Shown: positions 3,322-55,152 of the stretch, one piece after another
Position numbering within the stretch: the stretch's first letter is position 1
Layout: each line of letters begins with the position of its first letter
DNA from: a virus
Strand: one strand, 5' to 3'
IMG/VR virus record: IMGVR_UViG_3300031957_002938
Location: 1 to 64,000 of that record
Length of the DNA: 64,000 bases
Made by a program: the position numbers and the translations under genes
The notes under the pieces: generated by a model
Database searches by the model: none
Seen by the model: only the letters and a program-made list of their open reading frames with translations
What the model was told of the DNA's origin: nothing

Positions 3322-4968
3322 TTATCCCTCACAAGAAGAGCAATTTAGTATAGATCTTGCTAATTCTTGACTAGGATTTGCACTCCTTTGATAATAAAAG
3401 CTTTTTACTCCCTGTTCCCAACCAAATATAAGCAATTCACTAGCTTGTTTTGGTGGGCATTTTGGAGACACCATAACATTTAAGCTTTGTCCTTGATCAA
3501 TAAATTTTTGTCTTTGGGCTGCTTGAATCACAACTTCTTTTTGAGAGATTTCTCCAAAAGTCTTAAATACAGCTTTCTCTTCATCTGAAAGAAAATCTAG
3601 ATGCTGGACAGAACCCCCTTTGACAAGAATAGATTTCCAAGTAGTCTGGGTATTTTTTTTCTTTTCTTCTAATAAGGACTCTAGGTAAGGATTCTTATAA
3701 GTAAACTTACCTTTAGCTAAATCTTTTGTAAAATAGTTGCTATTCAGAGGCTCTATAGAAGGAGATACTGCGCCTAATATAAAAGAACTTGAAGTGGTCG
3801 GCGCGATAGCCATCGTGGTCATATTGCGCTTGCCATATCCTTTTAGATGTTCTGGCTCTCCAAACAAAACAGCTAATTCTTTGGTGGCTTTGTCGCATTT
3901 TTCTGAAATAGTTTTGTGAATTTCAGAATTTAAAAACTTAGCATCCATGCTTTCAAAAGAAATCATTTTTGATTGTAGGTAAGAATGCCAACCTAAAACG
4001 CCCACGCCTAAAGCCCTTTGTCTTTTAGAAAAGTTATGAGAAGACTTCATGTAAGGAATATCTTCTGTTTTTTGGATATATTCCTCCATCACTGCATCTA
4101 AAAAGTAAGTCAAGGTTTCTACAGCATCAGTCTCTACCATTTCATCCCAATTTAATAAGTTCAGTGAAGATAAACAACAAACAAAAGATTCATCCTCCGA
4201 AGAATGAAGAAAGATTTCGCTACAAAGATTAGATGCATGTATTTTAAGTTTTTTATCCTTGTAGGGTTTGGGTGCGTTAGCGTTTGCAGTATCAGAAAAA
4301 AATATGTATGGATAACCAGATTCATACCTTTTCTTAATAACCTGAAGCCAAATAGATCTTTTCTTTTTATCACCCTCGACCATAGACCTCATCCACTCAT
4401 CAGTAATGCAAACAGCAAAGGACATTTCTTGTATAGGGTTTCCCTCTGATCTAATCCTAAGAAATTCAGAAATATCAGGATGATCTATAGGTAAGTAAGC
4501 AGCGAAAGATCCTCTCCTGACATTACTTTGTGAGACGACGGATGTAACCTTATCAAAAAGCTCCATAAAATGAACAGGACCACTAGATGTTCCTCCATCA
4601 GAAATATTAGCTCCCCTAGATCTTAAGGAGCCAAAGTAACCAGATGTACCTGAACCGAGTTTGGTTTGCATACCAACTTCGGCTTGTTTATCAAGAATAG
4701 CGTCCATACGGTCTTCGATGTATACACCATTACAAGATATTGGTAGACCTCTTTCTCTGCCGAAATTAGCCCAGACAGGACTTGATAAAGAATAAAATCC
4801 TCTGCGAAGGTAATCCTCGAACTTTTCTGCGAAGCCTTTTATTTTAAGATGTTTTTCAGCAGCTACTGCAATATCATGGCCTCTGATTTCAGCCGTTTCA
4901 TTATCTTGAAGATAACCGTTGTTTAAAAACTTACGAGCATCCTTGTTAAGCCATTTATATTTTTTCAT
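3322..4968 (-). CDS. nrdA: Ribonucleoside-diphosphate reductase alpha subunit (class I)
   Basis: This is the catalytic subunit reducing ribonucleotides to deoxyribonucleotides. Active-site residues are visible: C79 (PISCNG), N247-x-C249-x-E251 (SNLCSE), C264/C265 as redox partner, the radical-transfer tyrosines Y525-Y526, and the C-terminal shuttle cysteines C543 and C546 (NCSSCEG). At 548 aa it is much shorter than cellular NrdA (about 750). The N-terminal ATP-cone is absent, so the usual dATP feedback inhibition should be missing, a known feature of some phage enzymes. It follows nrdB; the stop of nrdB and this ATG share bases. Confidence 0.95.
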   Translation of the reverse strand: MKKYKWLNKDARKFLNNGYLQDNETAEIRGHDIAVAAEKHLKIKGFAEKFEDYLRRGFYSLSSPVWANFGRERGLPISCNGVYIEDRMDAILDKQAEVGMQTKLGSGTSGYFGSLRSRGANISDGGTSSGPVHFMELFDKVTSVVSQSNVRRGSFAAYLPIDHPDISEFLRIRSEGNPIQEMSFAVCITDEWMRSMVEGDKKKRSIWLQVIKKRYESGYPYIFFSDTANANAPKPYKDKKLKIHASNLCSEIFLHSSEDESFVCCLSSLNLLNWDEMVETDAVETLTYFLDAVMEEYIQKTEDIPYMKSSHNFSKRQRALGVGVLGWHSYLQSKMISFESMDAKFLNSEIHKTISEKCDKATKELAVLFGEPEHLKGYGKRNMTTMAIAPTTSSSFILGAVSPSIEPLNSNYFTKDLAKGKFTYKNPYLESLLEEKKKNTQTTWKSILVKGGSVQHLDFLSDEEKAVFKTFGEISQKEVVIQAAQRQKFIDQGQSLNVMVSPKCPPKQASELLIFGWEQGVKSFYYQRSANPSQELARSILNCSSCEG

Positions 4969-5939
4969 TAGAAAAGATCGTCAGCGTCAAATGTTTGAGA
5001 ATTTTTTGAATATTCCACTGGTCTTGAGTGGAAAAAATCAGTGGCATTATTGCCCATTAATTCTTCTTCGAACCACATTGTATCTTCCAACAATGAAGTG
5101 TCAACATCAAACGCCGAATGAAAACCAATTTTTTCCAAAGAGTCATTAATTCTATTTTTTATAAACTCTTTAAGAATATCAGCATTCAATCCTTTCTCAT
5201 TAAAACCATTAATCATCCAGTCAACAATTTCACTTTCTGCTGAAAATGCAGCTTTGGACTCACTAGCCACTCTATCTTCTAACTCATCATCAAACAAATC
5301 AGGATGTTCGCTGCGAATAGTATTTATAATTTTAATTCCAGCTAAAGCATGAATATTTTCTTCGTTACGAGTATACTTTACTTGCTGGCCAGTGTCTTTG
5401 AGAACATTCCTGTAACGATTAAACCAATTAACAATATAAAACTGACTAAACAAAGATACATTTTCTACGAAAAGAGTAAAAAGTATAATTGAATAAACAT
5501 ACTGTTTTTTAGAGTCTTTGTAAAACTTATGGTTGTATTTCCGAAGATATTTCACCCTGCCTTCAATAAAATCAAGCTCCAAGTTCTTCTCAAAAACATC
5601 CTCTAGACCCAATACCTTTAATAACCTTTCGTAAGCATTGTTGTGAATCACTTCAGTATTAGCCATTACATAGCCCAAATCAGTTAAGCTTGGATGTGGT
5701 AAATTATCTCCGAGTTTGCTCCAGAATTTTTTTACTGCAACTTCAATCTGACCAATAGCAGAAAGAGTCCTGATGACCATTTCTTTTTCGTCTTCTGATA
5801 AATTTACGTTAAAATCTTGAATATCACTGCTAAAACTAAATTCTTTGTCGGTCCAGAAACCGTTGTGCATTGCCTCAATAAACTCCTGCGCCCAAGGGTA
5901 GTGGTCGGGCTTCCTCGATACTTGTTCTTCAAAAATCAT
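4968..5939 (-). CDS. nrdB: Ribonucleoside-diphosphate reductase beta subunit (class I)
   Basis: Ferritin-like subunit that generates the radical for NrdA. Metal ligands are E96, H99, E159, E194 and H197. Y103, in the E-x2-H-x3-Y context, matches the radical tyrosine. The first-ligand position is glutamate (E66, in IGQIEV) where E. coli has aspartate. The C-terminus ends DADDLF, the kind of tail that docks into NrdA. An AGTGTAA motif lies 12 nt upstream of the ATG. nrdB-nrdA are co-transcribed, and their products supply dNTPs for phage replication. Confidence 0.95.
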   Translation of the reverse strand: MIFEEQVSRKPDHYPWAQEFIEAMHNGFWTDKEFSFSSDIQDFNVNLSEDEKEMVIRTLSAIGQIEVAVKKFWSKLGDNLPHPSLTDLGYVMANTEVIHNNAYERLLKVLGLEDVFEKNLELDFIEGRVKYLRKYNHKFYKDSKKQYVYSIILFTLFVENVSLFSQFYIVNWFNRYRNVLKDTGQQVKYTRNEENIHALAGIKIINTIRSEHPDLFDDELEDRVASESKAAFSAESEIVDWMINGFNEKGLNADILKEFIKNRINDSLEKIGFHSAFDVDTSLLEDTMWFEEELMGNNATDFFHSRPVEYSKNSQTFDADDLF

Positions 5940-6773: not shown

Positions 6774-7134
6774 TTCTATTACAGCCGCAGCATATCTGGT
6801 TAAAGACCCAGAAGTAAGAACGACCAACAATGGTAAAAAAGTAGTCAGCCTAAGAGCTGGTATCTCCACATCTAATGCAAAAACTAAGTGTTTCGTAGAT
6901 GTTGAATATTGGGACAAGACAGCAGAGATTGCTGAAAAATACTTGTCAAAAGGTAGAGAGTTTATTGTGAATGGAGAACTTTGTATGTCATCTTGGGAAA
7001 AGGATGGTAAAAAATTCAGTAAATACTTTGTTCGTGGAAAAGATCTTCAGTTTTTAAGTTCTAAAAAGTCTGAAGGAGACGGAGACGGAGACAATAGCTC
7101 AAGTGATGTTAAAGGTGACGATGTTCCATTTTAA
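6766..7134 (+). CDS. ssb: Single-stranded DNA-binding protein
   Basis: OB-fold SSB coating single-stranded DNA during replication and recombination. The N-terminal domain (about 1-100) has the usual pattern: YLVKDPEVRTTNNGKKV, FVDVEYWDKTAEIAEKYLSKG, then GELCMSSWEKDGKKFSKYFV. A short acidic, glycine-rich linker leads to the terminal DDVPF, equivalent to the DDIPF tip that recruits replication partners. At 122 aa it is short, like other phage SSBs. It overlaps the sigma-factor gene by 8 nt and its stop overlaps the next ATG. Confidence 0.95.
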   Translation: MYNSITAAAYLVKDPEVRTTNNGKKVVSLRAGISTSNAKTKCFVDVEYWDKTAEIAEKYLSKGREFIVNGELCMSSWEKDGKKFSKYFVRGKDLQFLSSKKSEGDGDGDNSSSDVKGDDVPF

Positions 7135-8216
7135 TGAACTTAATATTAGAAGCTCCCTTAAATAGCTTAAGCTTTGGTAATGTTAGTTTTAACATTATTA
7201 GAGAGCTTCATAAGCTAGAGGTAAATCTGGCCATCTTCCCGACAGGTGAGCCAGATTTATCTGCTTTTGATATAAGTGATGATCTAAAAAAATACATTGA
7301 AGATGCTATAAACAATAGATGGAAATTAATTTCCAAACTAACACCCACTTTTAAATTATGGCATTTAAATGGCTCTGAAAACAGAAAGACCAAAGATCAA
7401 CATTTGTTTTCATTTTATGAATGTAGTGAACCTACAAAACTAGAAACTACGATAGCAGGTCTTCAAGACAATGTTATTTTTTCTTCTAAATACGCCCAAA
7501 ATCTTTTTAAAGAAAAAGGTCTCGAAAACACTAACTTTATTCCCCTTGGTTTTGATGAAGATTTCCATATCACTGGAAAAGAGTATCTAAAAGATATTAT
7601 CCATTTTGGCCTTATGGGTAAGTATGAGAACAGGAAACATACTAAAAAGATTATACAAACTTGGCTGAAAAAGTATGGGAATGATTCCAAATATCAACTT
7701 TCATGTTGTGTAAATAATCCTTTTTTAAATCAAGAGCAAATGCGAGGGGTCTGGAATGATATTACACAAGGTGTAAACTACAACAATCTCAACATCATCC
7801 CAAGATTAGCTAAAAATTCTGAAGTAAATGAGTTTTTAAATGCTATAGATATCGACCTCACAGGTCTATCTGGAGGAGAAGGCTGGAACATACCAGCTTT
7901 CAATGCTACTTGTTTAGGTAAGTGGAGTGTAGTTTTAAACGAAACCTCTCATAAAGATTGGGCGACTGAAGATAACTCAATTTTGGTTGAATCATCTGGA
8001 ACAACACCCTGTGAAGACGGAGTGTTTTTCACTAAAGAAAATGATTTTAACAATGGTATTTTTTATACATGGTCTGAAGATGAAGCTGTCTCCGCTATGG
8101 AAAAAGCTGAATCTAAAGTAGGACAGGTTAACACAGAGGGTGTCAAAATGGGAGACAATATGACATACAAGAAAACTACTCAAGCTATTTTATCCCTTGT
8201 TTTCAACAAAAAATAG
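7134..8216 (+). CDS. Glycosyltransferase-like protein (GT-B), 360 aa
   Basis: GT-B type architecture. The N-terminal half opens LILEAPLNSLSFGNVSFNIIRELHKL. A middle segment has NVIFSSKYAQNLFKEKG and NFIPLGFDEDF. The C-terminal half has FGLMGKYENRKHTKKIIQTW and the donor-binding segment DIDLTGLSGGEGWNIPAFNATCLGKW, whose SGGEGWNIP resembles the S-x-E-G-x-x-x-P acceptor/donor loop of GT4 enzymes. The substrate is unknown. It begins in the ssb stop codon, so it is co-translated with replication genes. Confidence 0.75.
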   Translation: MNLILEAPLNSLSFGNVSFNIIRELHKLEVNLAIFPTGEPDLSAFDISDDLKKYIEDAINNRWKLISKLTPTFKLWHLNGSENRKTKDQHLFSFYECSEPTKLETTIAGLQDNVIFSSKYAQNLFKEKGLENTNFIPLGFDEDFHITGKEYLKDIIHFGLMGKYENRKHTKKIIQTWLKKYGNDSKYQLSCCVNNPFLNQEQMRGVWNDITQGVNYNNLNIIPRLAKNSEVNEFLNAIDIDLTGLSGGEGWNIPAFNATCLGKWSVVLNETSHKDWATEDNSILVESSGTTPCEDGVFFTKENDFNNGIFYTWSEDEAVSAMEKAESKVGQVNTEGVKMGDNMTYKKTTQAILSLVFNKK

Positions 8217-8246
8217 AATGGCATAATAAATGTTAAATAAGTAAGT

Positions 8247-8561
8247 ATGCATACATTAATTAACAACATTCTTAACGATATCAACAAAACAACTAAAACT
8301 CACCCAGTCAAAGAGTCTGGAGATGTTTATACAGCAGAATTTGAATTGGCTGGGTTCTCTAAAAAAGATGTAGATATCAAAGTCACAGATAATATCTTAA
8401 CAGTAAATGCTAAAACTGAAGGTAGAAAAAAGTCATACCAATTATTTCTCTACGATTTAGTAGCAGAAGACCACATCTCTGCTTCGTTGAAGAATGGTCT
8501 TTTAAAAATAACTCTCCCCAAAAAGGCGGTTGCGGAGGCAAAAAAAATAGATATTAAATAA
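8247..8561 (+). CDS. Small heat-shock protein (Hsp20/alpha-crystallin), 104 aa
   Basis: ATP-independent holdase chaperone. The alpha-crystallin domain covers most of the protein: VYTAEFELAGFSKKDVDIKV, DNILTVNAKTEGRKK, and the signature ASLKNGLLKITLPK (A-x3-NGxLxIxxPK). N- and C-terminal arms are minimal. Phages of T4-like and marine groups often carry such genes, probably to help capsid or tail protein folding. Its terminal bases and the following spacer contain a 14-bp tandem duplication (ATAGATATTAAATA twice). Confidence 0.9.
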   Translation: MHTLINNILNDINKTTKTHPVKESGDVYTAEFELAGFSKKDVDIKVTDNILTVNAKTEGRKKSYQLFLYDLVAEDHISASLKNGLLKITLPKKAVAEAKKIDIK

Positions 8562-8574
8562 TAGATATTAAATA

Positions 8575-8961
8575 ATGGCTATTTATGTTTACAGACATCC
8601 TGAAACCAAAGAAGAAAAAGAAGTCTTCCAAAAAATGGATGATGAACATGTTTATTCAGAAGATGGCGTTGAGTGGGATAGGGTCTTCTCTGTCCCACAC
8701 GCATCTATAGACAGCTCTATCGACCCTTTTAATAGTCAACAGTATATGGATGCCACATACAATAAAAAAGGCACTATTGGAGACATGATGGATCTTTCTG
8801 CTGAATTAAGTGCGAAGAGAGCAGAAAAATCTGGCGGCTTAGATCCAGTAAAGGAAAAGTTCTACGACAATTACAAAAAAGAACGCAAAGGCGCAGAACA
8901 TCCGAACAGAATTAAAGAAAAAGGTTACAATAGCAAAAATATTAAAATCGATTACGATTAA
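8575..8961 (+). CDS. FmdB-like phage protein, zinc site lost, 128 aa
   Basis: The first 45 residues (MAIYVYRHPETKEEKEVFQ, then GVEWDRVFSVP) match the layout of FmdB-type putative regulators found in phages, which begin MPxYxYxC and have a zinc ribbon. The ribbon cysteines are absent here. The rest is charged and ends in a KNIKIDYD tail. Function unknown. It starts 13 nt after hsp20 and ends convergently with the tail operon. Confidence 0.6.
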   Translation: MAIYVYRHPETKEEKEVFQKMDDEHVYSEDGVEWDRVFSVPHASIDSSIDPFNSQQYMDATYNKKGTIGDMMDLSAELSAKRAEKSGGLDPVKEKFYDNYKKERKGAEHPNRIKEKGYNSKNIKIDYD

Positions 8962-11029: not shown

Positions 11030-11835
11030 TGATGTCCTATATAGTTGAGTGTTAAACGAACTGCTCCGTCAGAGCTAGATGTCAATTGTTCAGAAACAAG
11101 AGATGCATTAGGTATTGTTAATAATTGTATTCCATCTCCATTTTTTGCAGAGAGTAAAAAGCTAACGGTTTTATTTTCTCTATCATTTAAAAAATCAAAT
11201 CCACTTTGCAAAAAAGTATCATCCACTTCCATTTGTACAGAAGCTGAATACTGAATTGGATTTATATGTTTTACTTCCGTTGGTGTTTCAGACCCAATTG
11301 TATAGTATGGTTTTTTATTCATAGTTAATGAATAATCAAAACCAATCACACGATTACTAGAGCTATTATCACAAGTAGCAGTTATAGACCCTTGGCTTGG
11401 TATATAAATTGGAGTTGGTGTTGTTCCACTAGCATTAACCCCACTTCTCATTTCATCATAAACAACAAAAGATGTGTTAACTTTCGGAATAGCCCCTACA
11501 GCGCAATTAACAGAATAAGAAGATAAATATCCACTATTAAACCCATAAGAACTATTATTATTATAGTTAAAACTTCCCGCCATAGCTTCAGATGCCCCCG
11601 TAAAAGCTAAAATAGGATCTTCATAAATTAAATTTCTAGAAAAAGAAACAGTTTGACTTGTAGCGCCGCCTACCGCTGTTAAACCACGGCTCGATCCTAA
11701 AGGAGCTAAAACAGTGCTACTATTTGAGTAACCTATATCAAGACTTTCTACCCCAGAAAGCTCTCTTGCGCTTGGGCTTCCATCCGCTCCTGATATAAAG
11801 AAGTGGCAGTCGTAATTTAATGTTGTGTCATACAT
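11026..11835 (-). CDS. Tail tube-like structural protein (paralogue B), 269 aa
   Basis: Serine/asparagine-rich beta protein. It carries SSYSVNCAVGAIPKVNTSF, almost identical in pattern to SDYSVEMAVGAIPTVSVAF of the 22296-23393 protein, so both likely share the tube fold. The second half has two-fold similarity inside (MNKKPYYTIG, then QYSASVQMEVDD). It starts in the stop of the tape measure gene, so production is coupled to it. Probable distal tail or tube component. Confidence 0.6.
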   Translation of the reverse strand: MYDTTLNYDCHFFISGADGSPSARELSGVESLDIGYSNSSTVLAPLGSSRGLTAVGGATSQTVSFSRNLIYEDPILAFTGASEAMAGSFNYNNNSSYGFNSGYLSSYSVNCAVGAIPKVNTSFVVYDEMRSGVNASGTTPTPIYIPSQGSITATCDNSSSNRVIGFDYSLTMNKKPYYTIGSETPTEVKHINPIQYSASVQMEVDDTFLQSGFDFLNDRENKTVSFLLSAKNGDGIQLLTIPNASLVSEQLTSSSDGAVRLTLNYIGHQ

Positions 11836-14800
11836 TATGCTCTAGCTTGTCTTAAAGATCCTCCTAGCCTTTTTTCATCATCAATAACCTGTTTTACAAC
11901 ATCTCTTATTCTTCCTGCAAGATTTGTATTTTCTTCATCTGCGTTTCCATTTTCGCTAGATGTTCCATCTGAATTTACAGTGATGTTAATTATAGTTTCT
12001 CCTTGGTTATCAGAAACAGAAATTAATTCATCGAGCTTGTTTATAACAGCTCCTCCATCTCCAGAACCTCCACCAGAATTCATAGAGGATAATGCACCCC
12101 TACCAATTCTTTGTGTCGCCGCTGCATTCATTACAAACTCTCCTCCTGACAACATAGTAGGAACAGTATCTACTCCCGCTGCATAAGGTATAGATCCTCC
12201 TGTAGCGGCTTTTTTAGCAGCTTCACCGCCGCCGCCACTGAATAGACTATTTAAACCAAAAGACAAAGCGAAAGATGCTACAGAACCCAACAAAGCTTTA
12301 TTAGCTTGCTTCTCTTGCTCTCGCATTTGTTTCTCTTTGTTAATCTGTTGGACATATAATCCAAATGCTGATTTTTTACTAGCTTGCTCTTGTGCAAATT
12401 GTGGGCTGTTCCTACGCCCAAACATTGTAAGAGCTGCACTTTGAGGCTCTAGCGCAACAGAGGCGAATCCAGCCCCACCAGAAACAGAATCGAAAGCTCC
12501 AGTTGTAAATCCTTGAGTCGCGAAGTCTAAAAGGTTATTTTTACCCTTTATTGATTCCTGCCCATAAGTTCCTGGGGTGAATAATCCCCCTCGGTTCATC
12601 ATGGGAATTTGCCCTTGGTTCAAAGCTGCCATAAAACCTGCTCCATATTTTTGAACAGCTCCTTTTTTCATTACGAACTCTCCACCAGTCAAAAGAGCTG
12701 GAACATCATCTCTAGCCCCAGATCCTCCAGTAACTGGACCTCCAGAGTTTCTACCTAAAAACCCTAAAATGCTGCCAAAAAATCCTCCTCCTGATCCTGA
12801 CCCTTCACCGACTATACTATTAACAGCCTTTTGCATGAATGCTTGAGACAGAGTATTGAAGAAATCCGCAGCAGCACTTCTCAACAACCCGCCTAAATCC
12901 TCTCCTTTAGCGATAGCGTCTGTCATCGCTCTCCCTATGTTTTGGGCAAATTGAGCTGATGCATCTATTAACTGACCTGAAAATTCTTCCTGCTCTTTTA
13001 AAAGTCTTACTGTTTCTGTATCGTCTGCAATAATAGCATTACCCATGTTAGTTCTATTTTTTTCTCTTATGGCTAACTTTGCTCTCTGGGCTGGATCTGT
13101 GGCTAAATCTCGCTCAATAGCGCCTTGTCTTGCGCCTCTTAACATATCAGTCCCCATATCATCTAAAAGTTGACCCCGACTCTTTAGGAAGACACCTGCG
13201 GCTTCTAGATTAGCTTGAGCATTTTTTTTCGCTGCACTTGCTTGGTTATTCATCTCTTCGCGAGATCTTGCAAAACCGTCTCTTAAATTTGAAAGCTCTT
13301 GAGCAATTTTGTCTCCTTCTTCAGAGTCTCTTCCAAGTTGTAGTTCTATTGCTTTGTCTAAAGCAAAATCTGAACCCACATTTTGAATAACATCAGAGGC
13401 AGACGATCCTTGACTACCCGTCTGCATTACAAGCTCTGATATTGCTGCTGGACCTAACTTCTCTATTCTATTTGTAATTTCTTTGTTTATACTTAAATCA
13501 AGAGCATCTCTTCTATTTCTATTGTCATCTTTAACATCTGATAAAGCGTCTTGAGCAGCCTGTATTCGCAAACCCTCACTTTGCCTATTTGAAAACGCTC
13601 CAGTCTCTCTGGCAGCTCTATCTTGCTCTCTAGATCTCATGCGCTCTTTTCTCCCTTCCACAAGACCAAAAGTGCGCTCCTCTTCTCCTCCTAGAAATGA
13701 AAGATCGCTAGCTGCTCTAATATTTGCGATTTCAGATGCTTTTACTTTAATATTACCAAGAACTCCTAACTGACCAGTAAGTTCTCTAGTTTTCTTTTCT
13801 TCTACTTTTAAAGAATTTAATTCTCCCTGTAATTTTTCTTTGATTCTGTCATCACTTTCTTCTAATAACTTATTAGTCTGTTCTATTAAAAGTTTTGTTT
13901 CTTCTTTTGTGAAACTTTCTTTATTAGAAGCATCAGCTATTAATTTTTGAAGTTCTAGAGATTCATTTTCTTTAAACGTTATCTCTTTACTGGCTTTAGC
14001 CATCGCAGCTACAGCATCTAAAGTTTTGTCTCTTAAACCAACATTAGCATTTAATATGTCTTGCTCTGTTTTTAGAGCAATCATTTCTTCTTCAGCAAGA
14101 CTTTTCGACAACTCTGCTTTCAATACTCTCTGATCCATTTGATCCAAAACAGTTCTATCTGCTTTGGCGAGATCAACTGCGAACTGTATTTGTTGTTTAG
14201 CCAAGTTACTTGCAAGTCGAGCAGTGTCTACTCGAAGTTTTTTTTGATCTGCTAACCTTTTATTTTCTTCTAATGTAAAAATATTTTCTTTTTGACTCTT
14301 AGGAATTGTAATACCTTTTTCTCCTAAACCAGCTTGGACAGCTTCACTTCTAAACATGTCCTGTGTATTTCCTCCACGGAATCCTTTCACAAGGTTTTTA
14401 AAATCTTCATCGCTTAAATCACTAATAGCTTTAGTAAATTCATCTAAATCTTTTTTAACTTTCTTATTGGTTGTCGATAGAAAATCAAGAAATTCATTTA
14501 AAGCGTCTTGCCCTAACTTTACTCGGAAAATTCCCTCGCTAGTTTCGCTAGCTTTACTTCCTAATTCATCTAATTTAGCATCTACTTGCTCCGAAGTTAC
14601 ACCTAAAGACAAAAGAGAGGTCGCTGCTTTGGTAAACATTTCTTTAAAAGATTCTCCACTTTCTGCATCTTTACCCCCCTCGAACAATCTTGATCTTTGA
14701 AAATTTTTGAATGTTGCATTTTTAATAGCGTTTGTATCAACTGCTCTAGCACCAGTAACAGGAGGTAAATCTAATTCTCTTGTTGTAACCGTCCCACCTA

Positions 14801-17800
14801 CAACAGCTTTAGCTTCATCTTTAAGATTTTGTTGTTCTACGGCACTAAGATTAGAAAAGTTAAATGTAAGTTTTTTTGTGGCATCTGTTAAAGCTGCCAT
14901 AGCTAATGAAGCAGCTTTATTTTTACCAGTTGCTTCATTTATTGCTTCGTTTATGCCTTTAAATACAGATATCCCAGCGCCTATAGCAGCCCCATAAATT
15001 CCTAATTTGCTTACAAATTTTCCTCCTACACCTTTTATATTTTTTCCAAAATCGTTCAAAGCTACCCCTGCAAAAGCGGCGCTTGTGGCTCCAGATAAAC
15101 TTTCACTGACTATGTTTGTATATTTCTTAACAGCACCACCAGCTCCTTCTGTGGCAGCGCTTAAGAAACTTAAACCAGCTTGAAGTGCAAATATCGGACC
15201 TAGCAAATCTCTTTGAGCTTTACCTTGTTTTTTGGTATCTTCTATTTGGCCTTTGGCTGCATCCGCTGTTGCGTTTTGAGTTTTCTCGTTGTTAGACAAG
15301 CTCCTAGCAAATTTATCGACTTCTTTAGAGGCTTTATCATAAGACATTGTGCCTTCTGCCACTTCTTTATTTAATGAATCTATTTTTGAATTCAATTCAT
15401 CTAAGTTAGCCGCGACTTTCTTAGATCTCGTTCCTATCTGTTGTAATGTAAGATTTGCCCCACTTGCACCTTGATAATTTGGAATAAACCCTCTAGAAGC
15501 AGAAGGTATCGCTCCAGTGGGTTCGTCTCTTGTATTAGTGACAGCAAGACCCATTGGGTTTCCAGCATTTCTTAATGTTGGATCTTGATTGATTCTTATT
15601 TGATTGATTGGAAGACCTGCGGCTTTTTCTCTTCCTATCGCATCTTCAAGAGGTGAAGCAAAATTTGGAATGTAACCAGAAGCTCCTCTTGTCGAAGCTT
15701 TCATACCCAGTTTACTCAAAACTTCCTGTTTTCCTTTGTCACTAGCTTTTGTTAACTCGATTACCCCTTTTTGACTAATTGATCTTCCACTAGCAGAAGC
15801 GCCGAAATAACTAAATATTTTCTTAGCCATGCTATTTCTAGTTCCAGAATTGTCTGCAATTTTAGCATCTAAAAATTTAATACCACTACCTTTCAAAGCT
15901 GGAGATATATCTCCGATACTATTAATCGCAGATTGACCCACATAATCAAATGTAGCTGTTTCTCCAAAATCGAAATCTTTACTTTTTAATAAAGAACTTA
16001 AAGCTGTTTCAAAAATCGCTCCAGCTAATCCACCTATCGCTCCTTGGTTGGCGAGGCGATTAATTTTACCCGCTGTTGGTCGGCCACCAGTCATGGATTT
16101 TGATTCTCTTGTAGCTAACCCTATAGAAAATCTTTCGACTGATCTTTTTATATCTTTTTCTTCTCTTACTTTTTCTCCTGCCGAATCAATCCCAAAAACT
16201 GGGAAACTATAAGTATTTCCTCCAAAGGTTCCTGTAGCTCTTCTCGACCCTACACCTTTACGTGGAATAATCATACCAGCGGCATTAGTTTTAACTGGTT
16301 TTTTAGCAAAATTAGGTATATATCCTCCAGCCGCGCCCACTCTTCTCGCTCCAGCAGGAAGCCCCATCGAAGAAACCATATCTTGGTTAAATATAGCAGA
16401 TCCTCCAGTGCCAGCAAAATTAGGAACCATATATTCGCTGGTGTTTGCCACCATTGTTCCCTTCTGACCACTACCAAAATTAAAGTTCGGTATGGTAACT
16501 GGTCTTGCTGATTTAGGCGCTCCTCCCACTCCACGGTTTATATCTGACTGTTCAGAGCCATAACCTATAACTGCATTAAAGTTAGGGATATAACCTCCAG
16601 CACCGCGACCTTTAAGCTTTTTAGTTCCACCCATAACTCCAGGAGCTATTGTAGCTGCAATACTTTGCATCCTAGTCATTATCCCCACTTGCTCATTTAA
16701 AGCTGTTGTGAAAAATTTTACTTGAGCTTTCCTTTTATCTGCAACGCTTAACTGCGAATTTTCAATAGCTAAAATTTGTTTTTGAATACTCTCGTTACCT
16801 AACAAAGTCGAAGCGATCTGTCCTTGTAGAGTAGCTTGCTCTTTCGCTGCTCTATTAAGACCAAAGAAAGTTTTTAAAGAACCAACACCGAACTTCGCTA
16901 AATCGGCAGTGAGCTTTAGAATGATAGCTCCAAAGATGGCCAACCCAGGTCCAGCGATTACACCTCCTATACCTTTTACTATTCCTTTAGCAAAAGTAGA
17001 TCCTGTCTCTTCTCCACCCCCAAGCAGTTCATTCACTTTAGCAAAAATACCACTAAAAAAGTCTAGAATACTTTTTAAATTATCTGTAACACCAATTTCT
17101 CCTAAAGTGTTAGCTAACTCTTTTAAATTAATAGTAGTCTCATTAAGAACAGCAGATAAAGTTTGGTTTAAGGCTATATTACGACTGTAAGCTTCATTGG
17201 TGGCTTTGCCAGCAATTTCAGTTACCTTAATAGCTGTAGAAGTTTCTTTATTATAATCTTCGAGAATAGCTAAGAACGGAGCGATTTGGAACTTGCCCAC
17301 TAAATTCTCTGCAATCTGCAACCTTTTAGCGTCAGGTAAAGTCTCTAAAGTTTTTCCTAAATTTTGAATTAATTTTGTTGCACTTAAAACCTGTCCTGAT
17401 GCATCAGTTACTTGGACACCAAGGTTTTGCATTGTCTCAAGTTTATCGAGACTTTGTATACGAGTGAAAATTGTTTTAAAGGAGTTACCAATAACTGCTC
17501 CCCCTCGGGCGGTTCTTTCTTGTACTGCTGTAATAACACCAACCAGTTCATCGAAAGAAACACCTGCCTGAATAGCAACAGAACCAGATCTCTTAATACC
17601 TTCGATCAAATCTTTTTCTGAAACAGCAGCCGAAACAGCGGCAGCAGATAATTTATTAAGAACTTCTGCACTAGTAATCCCAGTAGAATTGAAAGAGTTA
17701 ATAGCTGATGTCAAACCAGCAACCGCTTCAGCAGCACCCAAACCAGACAAACGACTTAAAACCAAAGAATCATTTAATCTTTTTGTAACTTCTTCTGCTT

Positions 17801-18233
17801 TTAAACCTTGTCGGCTTAATTCTAAAGCGGCGTTCGCCACTGTTTCAAATGATTGCTCTGTATTTCGAGCTACATCAAAAATGGTTCCCTTAAAGGTATT
17901 TAACTCTTTGTTAGTCGTTCCAAGAATCGAATTAATACTAGCAAGAGATTTTTCTACTTCGATAGTTGTTCTTACTAAATCCGCGAAACCTCTTTGGACT
18001 GCCGAAAGCACACCCACTGAAGCTCCAAATGCCAACACACGGGCGTTAGCTGCCTCCATAGATTTAGTGAATTCATCTGCTTTACCAGTAATTCGACCAA
18101 GAGGTTGAGAAAGTCCCTCGATGCTCTTCGCACCTGGACCCATATTAATTTTAAGGCTTTTCCCCGCTTTTTTAGCAGCAGCTTCTATGCTGGCCTCTAA
18201 TCCTGTTTGTGTGACTGGTATTCTAACTGGCAT
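11835..18233 (-). CDS. Tail tape measure protein with embedded nuclease-like domain, 2132 aa
   Basis: Sets tail length and is threaded through the tail tube; helix-rich throughout. Residues 80-330 are a TP901-type tape measure domain (EVEKSLASINSILGTT, RGGAVIGNSFKTIFTRIQ). Residues 545-920 contain six IPNF-type motifs (547, 580, 602, 637, 853, 915). Between the fourth and fifth lies a globular segment with E742, D763 and D789-A-K791, a PD-(D/E)XK layout. The C-terminus has two copies of a VPALLTGGEFVM / VPTMLSGGEFVM motif common in tape measures. Lambda gpH, by comparison, is 853 aa. At about 0.15 nm per residue a fully helical protein would span about 320 nm; the inserted domain makes the true tail shorter. 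Confidence 0.92.
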   Translation of the reverse strand: MPVRIPVTQTGLEASIEAAAKKAGKSLKINMGPGAKSIEGLSQPLGRITGKADEFTKSMEAANARVLAFGASVGVLSAVQRGFADLVRTTIEVEKSLASINSILGTTNKELNTFKGTIFDVARNTEQSFETVANAALELSRQGLKAEEVTKRLNDSLVLSRLSGLGAAEAVAGLTSAINSFNSTGITSAEVLNKLSAAAVSAAVSEKDLIEGIKRSGSVAIQAGVSFDELVGVITAVQERTARGGAVIGNSFKTIFTRIQSLDKLETMQNLGVQVTDASGQVLSATKLIQNLGKTLETLPDAKRLQIAENLVGKFQIAPFLAILEDYNKETSTAIKVTEIAGKATNEAYSRNIALNQTLSAVLNETTINLKELANTLGEIGVTDNLKSILDFFSGIFAKVNELLGGGEETGSTFAKGIVKGIGGVIAGPGLAIFGAIILKLTADLAKFGVGSLKTFFGLNRAAKEQATLQGQIASTLLGNESIQKQILAIENSQLSVADKRKAQVKFFTTALNEQVGIMTRMQSIAATIAPGVMGGTKKLKGRGAGGYIPNFNAVIGYGSEQSDINRGVGGAPKSARPVTIPNFNFGSGQKGTMVANTSEYMVPNFAGTGGSAIFNQDMVSSMGLPAGARRVGAAGGYIPNFAKKPVKTNAAGMIIPRKGVGSRRATGTFGGNTYSFPVFGIDSAGEKVREEKDIKRSVERFSIGLATRESKSMTGGRPTAGKINRLANQGAIGGLAGAIFETALSSLLKSKDFDFGETATFDYVGQSAINSIGDISPALKGSGIKFLDAKIADNSGTRNSMAKKIFSYFGASASGRSISQKGVIELTKASDKGKQEVLSKLGMKASTRGASGYIPNFASPLEDAIGREKAAGLPINQIRINQDPTLRNAGNPMGLAVTNTRDEPTGAIPSASRGFIPNYQGASGANLTLQQIGTRSKKVAANLDELNSKIDSLNKEVAEGTMSYDKASKEVDKFARSLSNNEKTQNATADAAKGQIEDTKKQGKAQRDLLGPIFALQAGLSFLSAATEGAGGAVKKYTNIVSESLSGATSAAFAGVALNDFGKNIKGVGGKFVSKLGIYGAAIGAGISVFKGINEAINEATGKNKAASLAMAALTDATKKLTFNFSNLSAVEQQNLKDEAKAVVGGTVTTRELDLPPVTGARAVDTNAIKNATFKNFQRSRLFEGGKDAESGESFKEMFTKAATSLLSLGVTSEQVDAKLDELGSKASETSEGIFRVKLGQDALNEFLDFLSTTNKKVKKDLDEFTKAISDLSDEDFKNLVKGFRGGNTQDMFRSEAVQAGLGEKGITIPKSQKENIFTLEENKRLADQKKLRVDTARLASNLAKQQIQFAVDLAKADRTVLDQMDQRVLKAELSKSLAEEEMIALKTEQDILNANVGLRDKTLDAVAAMAKASKEITFKENESLELQKLIADASNKESFTKEETKLLIEQTNKLLEESDDRIKEKLQGELNSLKVEEKKTRELTGQLGVLGNIKVKASEIANIRAASDLSFLGGEEERTFGLVEGRKERMRSREQDRAARETGAFSNRQSEGLRIQAAQDALSDVKDDNRNRRDALDLSINKEITNRIEKLGPAAISELVMQTGSQGSSASDVIQNVGSDFALDKAIELQLGRDSEEGDKIAQELSNLRDGFARSREEMNNQASAAKKNAQANLEAAGVFLKSRGQLLDDMGTDMLRGARQGAIERDLATDPAQRAKLAIREKNRTNMGNAIIADDTETVRLLKEQEEFSGQLIDASAQFAQNIGRAMTDAIAKGEDLGGLLRSAAADFFNTLSQAFMQKAVNSIVGEGSGSGGGFFGSILGFLGRNSGGPVTGGSGARDDVPALLTGGEFVMKKGAVQKYGAGFMAALNQGQIPMMNRGGLFTPGTYGQESIKGKNNLLDFATQGFTTGAFDSVSGGAGFASVALEPQSAALTMFGRRNSPQFAQEQASKKSAFGLYVQQINKEKQMREQEKQANKALLGSVASFALSFGLNSLFSGGGGEAAKKAATGGSIPYAAGVDTVPTMLSGGEFVMNAAATQRIGRGALSSMNSGGGSGDGGAVINKLDELISVSDNQGETIINITVNSDGTSSENGNADEENTNLAGRIRDVVKQVIDDEKRLGGSLRQARA
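15657..16325 (-). other. PD-(D/E)XK nuclease-like domain between GYIPNFA motifs (inside tape measure)
   Basis: Residues 637-859 of the tape measure start and end with the same heptapeptide GYIPNFA. Inside, GAIGGLAGAIFETAL supplies a helix with E742. ATFDYVG gives a strand with D763, and IKFLDAKI a strand ending in D789-x-K791. Order and spacing fit the PD-(D/E)XK nuclease core. No enzymatic proof is possible from sequence alone; a degenerate fold is the alternative. Confidence 0.55.
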
Positions 18234-30637: not shown

Positions 30638-32503
30638 TTAAGAAATAAACATCGGAGTGAAAGTCGTTTGGGTATCAGAGATATCATCAGACTCCATATC
30701 ATAAAAAATATTCATCATCCAATTACCTAGCACTAAAGCTGAATAAGAGTCTTTTCTGGCTTTATCAGCCCCACTTTGTTTTCTCAAGTTACGTGGTAAA
30801 TCAAAACTTTGTGTGCCTTGGGCAGAAGTCGTAATTTGCACCAAAGCACACTGAACTTTTATTAAGTCCATCATATCTTTTTGATGCTCTACAAAATCAA
30901 TCATTCTAGCTCCTTTACCCCCTTTATCATTATTATCACCTTTAATGAACTTTAAATCATCTATCGGGACTCTAGATTTCCTTTGATTGTTATAATCGTC
31001 ATTCATTGCCGCTCCTGCGAAAAATATTCTTTTATGATCGAATGCTGATTGTAAAGATTCGTTAGCTAGCCTGATCCATGCCGAAGTCGGCTTCCGAAGA
31101 AACACAAATTTCTTTTCTGACTTATTATATTGATTTTTAAGCCTTCTTAAGTTTTTATCATAGTCTTTAGATTTATCTAGGTCGGCTTCTATGACACCAA
31201 GATTTAAATTTTTCTTTTTAAAGATTTCACTCTCATTGCAGGAGTTAATAAATTGAACTCCTCCATTGTAGTCACCTACTACAGCAGCTACATTAAAGTG
31301 GGTCAATACGTAAGCCATGTATTTAATATGTGTTTTTAAACTCGATCCAGAAAGCGCATAGCTATGGACAGCAGTTCCTTTTCTAGTGTCACGATTCAAT
31401 TTTATTAAAAGCATCGCGAAATCGTCTGAACTTTCGCTTTCAGACCAAGAGGGGTCAAAAGCTAGAATATATTCATCTTTGGGATTACCCACAACCTCCA
31501 CACATTGCCCTTCTCCGTCTGGTATCGTGCAAGCAGCCATCTTACTAACCTTAAAGTATCCAGAGCTGTCATCTGTGAATATAGCACCAAACTCCCTGTC
31601 AAACTGGGAATCACTCATGGTGGATTTAGATTGATTGATTAGACTCTGATCATACAACTGTTCAGGAGCGCAATCATAACTAAAATGCATTATTGTTCTG
31701 TGTGCTCCGTCTTGCTTTTTTTTATTTAAGATAAGAGCTTCATATTGCTGATAGATTTTATATAAATATTCAAATTTATAAGAAGCCGAGGATAAACCAA
31801 TAATTTTGTTATTAGGCCACCTTTTTCTTTCTTCTTGTTTCATTTTACCCTGCTCAATCATCTGGGTTTCTAAATCATAAACCTCTTGACGTTCTGTAGG
31901 GTTTTCCACAACAGATAGGAATGGTATGATAACCTCATTGTAAATTTTTTCAGGCATCAACAATAACTCATCAATAATCATTCTTTGGAATCGGAAACCC
32001 CTTAACTTTTCTCCATCTCCCAAAGGAAGCGCTCTGATACTACTTCTGCCGATCTCCATAACCCACTCATCGTTCATCTTAGATGTTCTAGTTATGCATT
32101 GAGAAAAGAAAGTAGCCTTGGGGCTTTTTGCTATATCTTCGATCTTTTTGAAAATCATTTTAGATTGCCTAAAAGACTTAGACAAAATACCTATCTGCAC
32201 CCCCTGATTGAGAATAGCGTCTAATAGCGCGAAAACGCCCGTAGAGAAGCTTTTGGACATTCCCCGACTCCATATCCCCAAAAAGTAGTCAGACTCCATC
32301 ATGGCCTTAATAGCCATATGCTGGAATGGGAATAATTTAACCCCTGTAAACAATTCACAAGCAAAAGAAGGATTTTCCCTCAAGAATTTATAAAGCAAAA
32401 CTTTCGCTTCAGTTTCCTCTATAAAACCCTCTTTTTCGAGAATATCTTTGTTTATATCCTTGTACTGTCGGTGTAGTTTCTGTTTTCCTGTTTCCCAAGC
32501 CAT
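30638..32503 (-). CDS. terL: Terminase large subunit, 621 aa
   Basis: DNA-packaging motor. N-terminal ATPase: variant Walker A at residues 78-85 (WSRGMSKS) and Walker B IIDEL at 176-180, with coupling segment GLSSASYKFEYLY near 236. C-terminal RNase H-like nuclease: D350 in YILAFDPSW, D411 in VVGDYNGG, and a late acidic residue in ARMIDFVEH near 545. The ATG at 32503 is the only plausible start, so it overlaps the upstream nuclease gene by 95 nt. Together with portal and capsid it defines the packaging/head module. Confidence 0.95.
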   Translation of the reverse strand: MAWETGKQKLHRQYKDINKDILEKEGFIEETEAKVLLYKFLRENPSFACELFTGVKLFPFQHMAIKAMMESDYFLGIWSRGMSKSFSTGVFALLDAILNQGVQIGILSKSFRQSKMIFKKIEDIAKSPKATFFSQCITRTSKMNDEWVMEIGRSSIRALPLGDGEKLRGFRFQRMIIDELLLMPEKIYNEVIIPFLSVVENPTERQEVYDLETQMIEQGKMKQEERKRWPNNKIIGLSSASYKFEYLYKIYQQYEALILNKKKQDGAHRTIMHFSYDCAPEQLYDQSLINQSKSTMSDSQFDREFGAIFTDDSSGYFKVSKMAACTIPDGEGQCVEVVGNPKDEYILAFDPSWSESESSDDFAMLLIKLNRDTRKGTAVHSYALSGSSLKTHIKYMAYVLTHFNVAAVVGDYNGGVQFINSCNESEIFKKKNLNLGVIEADLDKSKDYDKNLRRLKNQYNKSEKKFVFLRKPTSAWIRLANESLQSAFDHKRIFFAGAAMNDDYNNQRKSRVPIDDLKFIKGDNNDKGGKGARMIDFVEHQKDMMDLIKVQCALVQITTSAQGTQSFDLPRNLRKQSGADKARKDSYSALVLGNWMMNIFYDMESDDISDTQTTFTPMFIS

Positions 32504-43390: not shown

Positions 43391-43397
43391 AATGCTC

Positions 43398-44084
43398 ATG
43401 TCAAACCTACTTAATTCAGGAAACTATAAAACGAGTAAGGGCGAAAAGTATGGTTGGAAAACCTATGGCTTGCACCTTGCACCCTTTAACTTATCAGGAA
43501 AAAATGTTTGCTCTTCTGCTTCTGTTGGTTGTTCTACTGCTTGCCTCAATACTGCTGGTCGTGGATCAATGCATTCAGTTCAAGATGCCCGAGTTAAAAA
43601 AACACAGAGGTTTTTCGAGGATCGGGTTGAATTCTTATCGCAGCTATTCAAGGAAATCAAAAGCTCGGTCAAGAGCGCGGCGAAGAAACAAATAAACTCT
43701 TGTTTCAGGCTTAATCTCACAAGCGACTTGCCTTGGGAGAATATGGTGGTCAAACACTTTCCAGATTCTCAATTCTACGACTACACAAAACACTTAAAAA
43801 GATTCGTTGCATACTTAGAGGGAAAGCTCCCTGACAATTACCATCTTACTTACTCCAGGGATGAAACAACGCCCGATACATTAGTTCAAAGCTTGTGTGC
43901 AAGTGGTGGAAACGTCGCTGTCGTTTTCCGAGGAAGTCTCCCAAAGACATGGCTTGGAATCGAAGTGATCGATGGCGACGATTCAGACTTGCGCTTTAAA
44001 GATGGCAACGGTAAAATTGTTGGGTTGCTAGAGAAAGGTCTTGCTAAGAAAGATGAAACTGGATTCGTAGTAGAGCCATGTTAA
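43398..44084 (+). CDS. Gp88-family phage protein, 228 aa
   Basis: Matches the phage gene-product-88 pattern: HLAPFNLSGKNVCSSASVGC, then CLNTAGRGSMHSVQDARVKK and a helix FEDRVEFLSQLFKEI. Clustered cysteines suggest a metal site. Biochemical function is not established. The start is set by the leaderless promoter. Confidence 0.8.
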   Translation: MSNLLNSGNYKTSKGEKYGWKTYGLHLAPFNLSGKNVCSSASVGCSTACLNTAGRGSMHSVQDARVKKTQRFFEDRVEFLSQLFKEIKSSVKSAAKKQINSCFRLNLTSDLPWENMVVKHFPDSQFYDYTKHLKRFVAYLEGKLPDNYHLTYSRDETTPDTLVQSLCASGGNVAVVFRGSLPKTWLGIEVIDGDDSDLRFKDGNGKIVGLLEKGLAKKDETGFVVEPC

Positions 44085-45570: not shown

Positions 45571-45644
45571 TAGGTGCGGTGGGATTCGAACCCACACTTT
45601 ACGGATTTTAAGTCCGTTGCCTCTGCCAGTTGGGCTACGCACCC
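45571..45644 (-). tRNA. tRNA with anticodon UAA (Leu), short variable loop
   Basis: The minus strand folds as a cloverleaf. Acceptor stem GGGTGCG/CGCACCT (G1-U72 wobble), anticodon stem ACGGA/TCCGT with loop CTTAAAA (anticodon UAA), variable loop AAAGT, T-arm GTGGG-TTCGAAT-CCCAC. CCA is not encoded. Bacterial leucine tRNAs normally have a long variable arm, and this one does not. It would read UUA, common in this AT-rich genome. Confidence 0.85.
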
Positions 45645-54549: not shown

Positions 54550-55152
54550 CTAATCAGGATAAACTATGTAACCTTTTTCTTTGATTTTAGACCAAATTTG
54601 CCTTTCTGCCCATTCCTCCTGAAATCTTTCTTGATTAGATTTTAGCCATCTTTCGTGAGAGTCTTTTGTTATTTGAAGAGCTGCACTCTTAGATTTCCAA
54701 TCTCCCACTTTAGTATCAGAATCTCTGTCTATTTTGTAAATTTTGAAAAATTGCCTGTAGATTTTAAGGTGGGCTAATTCAATATCGTGAACTGTTTTGT
54801 ATTTATCCACAGGTGACCAATGAGGCACGGCAATTAGTTTATTATCAACTTCTCCACCGTCAATAAAACCTAAAACCCCAAGGACACGGCAAGATACTAA
54901 ACTCCCTCTATCTATAGGGTCATGGTTAAAAATTAAAACATCTAGAGGATCGTTATCAAGGGCAATAGTTTGTGGAATAAACCCATAATTTATTGGATAT
55001 TGCAAAGAAGAAACAAGACATCTATCTAATTTAAATATGTTTAAACTCTCATCATACTCATATTTTGTATTAGTCCCTTTAGGTATTTCTACGATACAAT
55101 TCACATGCTCATAATCATCTGAAGTAATAGGAATATCGTTAACTAAATTCAT
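54550..55152 (-). CDS. ppa: Inorganic pyrophosphatase (family I), 200 aa
   Basis: Hydrolyses pyrophosphate, pulling DNA and dNTP synthesis forward. The active site is preserved relative to E. coli numbering: E22, K30, E32, R44, Y52, Y56, D66, D68 and D71 (LDNDPLDVLIF), and DGGEVDNKLIAV near 98. Length is typical for prokaryotic family I enzymes (about 175) plus a C-terminal tail (ERFQEEWAERQIWSKIKEKG). Its start overlaps the upstream nuclease-like gene. Confidence 0.93.
   Translation of the reverse strand: MNLVNDIPITSDDYEHVNCIVEIPKGTNTKYEYDESLNIFKLDRCLVSSLQYPINYGFIPQTIALDNDPLDVLIFNHDPIDRGSLVSCRVLGVLGFIDGGEVDNKLIAVPHWSPVDKYKTVHDIELAHLKIYRQFFKIYKIDRDSDTKVGDWKSKSAALQITKDSHERWLKSNQERFQEEWAERQIWSKIKEKGYIVYPD

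Follow-up and report, generated by a model that had tools for sequence, protein, structure and literature searches.

The tape measure protein (TMP) encoded by a 64,000-nucleotide stretch of viral DNA, positions 1 to 64,000 of IMG/VR record IMGVR_UViG_3300031957_002938 and here called the window, carries an exchangeable cassette in its interior. Between two fixed GYIPNFA frames, this protein and its relatives hold an enzyme-like domain of about 205-300 amino acids with a conserved (E/D)...D...(D/E)xK...(K/Q) constellation. The cassette is real and exchangeable, and it is probably an injected enzyme. We give a probability of roughly 0.55 to the reading that it is an exchangeable, injected nuclease effector of the PD-(D/E)XK type. 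The carrier is identified as a TMP by the Pfam domain PhageMin_Tail (E 2.7e-27), by several PHROG tape measure families and by its long open reading frame (ORF), which adjoins minor tail genes. Its parts, in window coordinates, are the following.

11835..18233, minus strand: TMP, 2132 amino acids
17295..17873, minus strand: PhageMin_Tail domain, residues 121-313, conserved backbone
16869..16988, minus strand: hydrophobic segment, residues 416-455, membrane-segment-like in a hydropathy scan
16305..16598, minus strand: left frame module, residues 546-643, located by motif scan and kept in relatives, with the motifs GGYIPNFN (16575-16598), PVTIPNFN (16479-16502), EYMVPNFA (16413-16436) and GGYIPNFA (16305-16328)
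15681..16304, minus strand: exchangeable cargo, residues 644-851, nuclease-like domain
15819..16022, minus strand: catalytic-type core of the cargo, residues 738-805, conserved in 68 flank-selected and 107 wider cargos, with G738, E742 (16008-16010), D763 (15945-15947), D789 (15867-15869), K791 (15861-15863) and K805 (15819-15821)
15471..15680, minus strand: right frame module, residues 852-921, running from SGYIPNFA (15657-15680) via NPMGLAVTNTRDEPTG to RGFIPNYQ (15471-15494)
13212..15470, minus strand: second TMP stretch that varies, residues about 922-1674 (the end is approximate and inferred from relatives), with a breakpoint just after an IPNF motif in swap pairs

The initial annotation had placed six IPNF-type motifs at residues 547, 580, 602, 637, 853 and 915 of the TMP, and a motif scan locates all six to within 1-2 positions. 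In order they read GGYIPNFN, TIPNFN, MVPNFA, GGYIPNFA, SGYIPNFA and GFIPNY, with the perfect GYIPNFA copies at residues 637 and 853. The DNA of these two copies (15657-15677 and 16305-16325) is 81% identical and differs at synonymous positions, which indicates that the peptide itself is conserved and that the copies are no recent DNA repeat. The right frame module, 74-89% identical and higher in most relatives, served as a scan query. A scan of IMG/VR with the cargo domain gave eight clear relatives along with L011 and L012, in which the same frames enclose a different domain with the same order of residues. With only the right flank as query, 246 places matched, and 80 of them were kept. With the first scan included, a complete frame is present in 81 TMPs, that of the window among them, and the cargos measure 223-315 amino acids counting the frames. 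These 81 cargos form five clusters that barely detect one another by BLAST, and most cargos are only 20-30% identical. Sixty-eight distinct cargos were selected by their flank and not by their content, except for the first ten; a wider set of 107 is less independent, since some of its members were picked with the core profile.

The framing repeats had been proposed to act as sockets for exchangeable cargo, and comparison of related phages bears this out strongly: the framing stays the same and the cargo varies widely. Pairs of TMPs can be 90-96% identical over the 500 amino acids before and the 50 after the cargo, while the cargos themselves lie at the shuffled baseline of 24%. DNA comparison defines the breakpoints. 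L021 and L071 share 92.7% identity over 5.2 kb, ending 22 nt inside the codons of the left GYIPNFA, after which the cargo DNA has no similarity and a right module of 180 nt is again 93.3% identical. A second non-homologous stretch begins directly after the next IPNF motif and is followed by 92.2% identity for 3.7 kb. The breakpoints on the left and on the right recur at the same positions in six further pairs, for a total of seven. L035 and L078 present the reverse case, in which cassette DNA of 82-98% identity lies between flanks of 51-83% and the synonymous divergence (dS) is 0.19 in the cargo versus 1.23 in the N-terminal TMP. This is a recent cassette transfer, and older and recent exchanges both run through the conserved frame modules. 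Among close relatives, the swapped cargos are versions of a single enzyme type; other kinds of cargo are found only in more distant TMPs, mostly with several slots.

A selfish, homing-like element would account for variable nuclease-like cargo, for breakpoints in shared flanks and for recent transfers: the cargo nuclease would cut other TMP alleles in mixed infections and spread by repair through the conserved flanks. Such an element should leave empty alleles, however, and none was found among 118 distinct TMPs (L182, which was misaligned, has its slots filled). Pfam shows no intein, splicing or homing-endonuclease domain in the TMP, the same frames also hold cargos devoid of the nuclease-like pattern, and ordinary phage recombination is enough to explain the exchanges. 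Homing is accordingly a very improbable account of the cassette.

Beneath this variability, the core of the cargo is conserved. E742, D763 and D789-A-K791 stand between the two perfect frames at the residues named in the initial annotation, and the 68 flank-selected cargos retain them with tight spacing: D763, K791 and G738 are invariant, position 742 is E (65) or D (3), position 789 is divided evenly between D (34) and E (34), and position 805 is always K or Q. The same constellation is kept in the 107 wider cargos, apart from a single N at 789. The ordered pattern G..[FYL][ED]-x17-26-D-x21-34-[DE]xK-x11-14-[KQ] is present in 68/68 distinct cargos, compared with a mean of 0.6/68 in shuffled cargos (maximum 3 in 200 rounds) and with 0/67 and 0/58 in stretches taken from elsewhere in these TMPs; the cargos tested also supplied the pattern, and the contrast with the controls is large nonetheless. 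This test replaced a count of invariant columns, which was dropped as proof because aligned shuffles also yield 1-4 single-residue columns. The ratio of non-synonymous to synonymous substitution rates (dN/dS) is 0.17-0.51 in the cargo versus 0.04-0.18 in the N-terminal TMP, so the cargo evolves faster yet remains under purifying selection.

These data also bear on a reading in which the cassette serves the TMP as a surface or as a point of contact with the host and has diversified to match different inner-membrane partners or to evade TMP-sensing defenses such as SNIPE, with any catalysis secondary. TMP variants of coliphages do decide inner-membrane partner use and SNIPE sensitivity (PMC13190303), and the second TMP stretch of the phages studied here varies too. 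That stretch (about 13212-15470 in the window; 6181-8437 in L021) is the hydrophobic and coiled-coil part of the protein, starts directly after the next IPNF motif and changes independently of the cargo, its clusters not matching those of the cargo. Mere binding or escape, though, would not preserve a five-position acidic and lysine constellation down to 20-30% identity, nor would it put other enzyme-like domains into the same frames. We consider a pure interaction module improbable.

The assignment of the domain to a nuclease family is less firm. The initial annotation had called it a globular domain of PD-(D/E)XK type. AlphaFold2 predicts a folded cargo (predicted local distance difference test score, pLDDT, 82; predicted template modeling score, pTM, 0.78), and this model and a second one, of a cargo from another cluster (pLDDT 86), agree in predicted topology: N-terminal strands, helices, the E742 helix, the D763 strand, a helix, the (D/E)xK strand and the K/Q805 helix. 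As to the family, what stands is the order and identity of the motif residues (E...D...(D/E)xK, with D and K invariant) and a weak profile alignment with Mrr; the predicted fold finds no recognized match. In hhalign, the cargo profile aligns with Mrr_cat on G..FE and D with a score of 15.5, against 7.9 +- 1.3 for a column-shuffle null, and the alternation of D and E at position -2 of the invariant K fits this nuclease type. Mrr-type nucleases (PF04471) share with the cargo the G..FE helix motif, the D and the (D/E)xK in the same order; unlike them, the cargo has no significant sequence or fold match, longer spacing and a helix between D and (D/E)xK. Motif and weak profile match thus point to a putative PD-(D/E)XK enzyme, and the fold does not.

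Several results weigh against a PD-(D/E)XK effector. Neither model matches a structure in the PDB, and the second matches no viral model in BFVD. The helix predicted between the D and (D/E)xK strands is unusual for PD-(D/E)XK. Searches with cargo sequences in Pfam, PHROG, NCBIfam and the PDB gave nothing above noise, and in absolute terms hhalign assigns a low probability to the Mrr match. Within the approximately 17 kb shared by G004 and G005, no immunity gene was found to covary with the cargo, a difference from polymorphic toxins. Finally, ejection of the cargo and its catalytic activity are steps that we infer.

The structural mismatches would be expected if the cassette were an exchangeable injected enzyme that folds in its own way and uses the acidic residues, the lysine and the K/Q for a different reaction; neither model resembles a PD-(D/E)XK structure or anything else, and no family library names the cargo. 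PD-(D/E)XK nevertheless fits the order of the residues, the alternation of D and E ahead of the invariant lysine and the alignment with Mrr, and its families are hard to recognize from one another. The present comparison illustrates this: hhalign places the cargo at noise against VRR_NUC, and Mrr and VRR_NUC, both members of the superfamily, miss each other as well, so that the VRR_NUC comparison is uninformative and the method is weak even among known members. UPF0102 returned no loci. Weak structural hits to Ras/Rab folds (Z about 2-3) were dismissed, as the cargo has no P-loop. An enzyme outside the PD-(D/E)XK superfamily is, on balance, an unlikely alternative.

TMPs occupy the lumen of the tail until infection, when they leave it. 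Lambda TMP has been found at the inner-membrane injection site (PMC13190303). By analogy with this biology, the TMP of the window would be delivered with the genome and its cargo could act on host DNA, as first proposed. The cargo is never missing, preserves its catalytic constellation, is hypervariable elsewhere and is subject to swapping, a combination that suits an injected enzyme engaged in an arms race. Recombination in the conserved frame modules gives near-identical TMPs unrelated-looking cargos. In the mechanism that we propose, each cargo would be a metal-dependent PD-(D/E)XK-type nuclease, closest to Mrr in motif layout, with a fixed catalytic core and variable surroundings that set its target. 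It would ride in the tail lumen within the TMP, exit at genome injection and act in the newly infected cell on nucleic acid of the host or of a competitor, and an arms race, fought over the target or host inhibitors, would drive its diversification and swapping. The genes neighboring the TMP are conserved across cargo types, and another block that varies, about 1.1 kb in length and roughly 6 kb upstream of the cargo (13637-14732 in G004 versus 7771-8881 in G006), is independent of cargo type. The lack of a linked immunity gene in the approximately 17 kb compared suggests self-protection through inactivity in the tail or through choice of target: the phage would probably be spared because the domain is inactive there or because the target is absent from the phage's own nucleic acid.

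More distant TMPs extend the picture, with up to nine or more IPNF motifs and several filled segments. Of 121 distinct slots located immediately ahead of a conserved DEPxG module, 108 show a looser version of the nuclease-like pattern; the remaining 13, all in distant TMPs, hold other content. Seven IPNF-framed segments share a Walker A motif and have weak P-loop/AAA matches, in a slot before or near the nuclease-like cargo; four have DxD(G/E)T and further HAD-like motifs, one of them with sub-threshold support. One framed segment looks ParB-like.

L103, L206, L208, L209, L210, L211 and L218 (for example 5654-6163 of L218): P-loop nucleoside triphosphatase (NTPase)-like segments
L203, L206, L211 and L212 (for example 5669-6139 of L211): HAD-like segments

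The presence of other enzyme-like domains in the same frames favors the effector reading. It also raises a broader idea, which we hold tentatively and at a little under even odds: that GYIPNFA modules form a general TMP socket system of uncultivated phages, loading and injecting one to several interchangeable enzymes with no linked immunity genes. Its cargos would comprise PD-(D/E)XK-like nucleases, P-loop NTPases, HAD-like proteins and possibly ADP-ribosyltransferase and ParB-like domains, making it a phage counterpart of polymorphic toxins. An ADP-ribosyltransferase reading of the IPNF-framed segment at 4822-5544 in L182 (YRG, STS) was set aside; the motifs were seen by eye only, and Pfam and the PDB gave no support.

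Some segments stand apart. Framed segments in L224 (5645-6322), L111 (76-705) and L205 (at TMP residue 646) have by eye an E...D...(E)xK order and may be further nuclease types missed by the core profile. The TMPs of L229 and L230, contigs in a Halobacteriovorax metagenome-assembled genome (MAG), are at least 4.2 thousand amino acids long and contain many segments framed by IPNF motifs; the nuclease-like pattern is absent from all of these segments. L176 and L179 have long low-complexity repeats of the type GSKNQ...PPQERQ at TMP residues of about 650-1150.

The window is part of a virus record of 89,658 bases, in which no integrase or resolvase was found, although the record may be incomplete. 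The TMP gene is followed by two minor tail genes. Matches in genomes are single contigs in MAGs of Flavobacteriaceae, Verrucomicrobiales and Halobacteriovorax; these may be binned phage contigs, and no host is assigned. At the limits used, neither the flank modules nor the cargo had a match in any cultured phage. Other genes of the window are as follows.

30638-32503: terminase
3322-5939: ribonucleotide reductase large and small subunits
54550-55152: inorganic pyrophosphatase
1432-2283 and 7134-8216: two glycosyltransferases
43392-44084: GP88 family protein
45571-45644: tRNA-Leu

Few proteins of tailed phages are as long or as poorly understood as TMPs. Should the middle of these proteins consist of sockets for injected enzymes, much that is unexplained in TMP lengths and mosaicism could be read as effector arrays, for which the IPNF frames offer a sequence handle. 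Enzyme injection through the TMP of long-tailed phages also becomes directly testable; T4 injects Alt by another route. If true, the model would indicate that nature has a system for protein delivery in which the points of insertion are defined.

The string GYIPNFA was not found in the literature searched, and, as far as these searches show, cargo slots that lie inside a TMP, are framed and recombine have not been described. The nearest known systems share parts of the arrangement. MuF polymorphic toxins of temperate phages likewise join a conserved virion part to highly variable effectors, nucleases included, that are thought to be delivered with phage DNA (PMC5576092). MuF is a head protein, however, with a C-terminal toxin usually followed by an adjacent small putative immunity ORF, whereas the TMP cargo is internal (644-851 of 2132), framed on both sides, and has no linked immunity gene that was found and no adjacent ORF tracking it. 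Polyvalent proteins are large multi-domain phage proteins, also thought to be injected, with exchangeable effectors that include zeta-like kinases, ADP-ribosyltransferases and nucleases (PMC5512222). Tape measure proteins go unmentioned in that paper; in the present case it is the TMP that carries the effector, inserted between fixed peptide frames. In Tme, from the contractile injection system of Streptomyces davawensis, a TMP-like protein bears an attached endonuclease whose activity has been demonstrated (PMC11126660). Its nuclease is C-terminal and of the EndA type (DRGH) and belongs to a bacterial injection system, in contrast to a framed, swappable PD-(D/E)XK-like cargo in a phage TMP. 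A study of mosaicism found TMPs over-represented in sequence-based mosaicism, and its authors were unable to confirm a genuine recently emerged case (PMC10684548); the cassette described here provides both a recent transfer and exact breakpoints.
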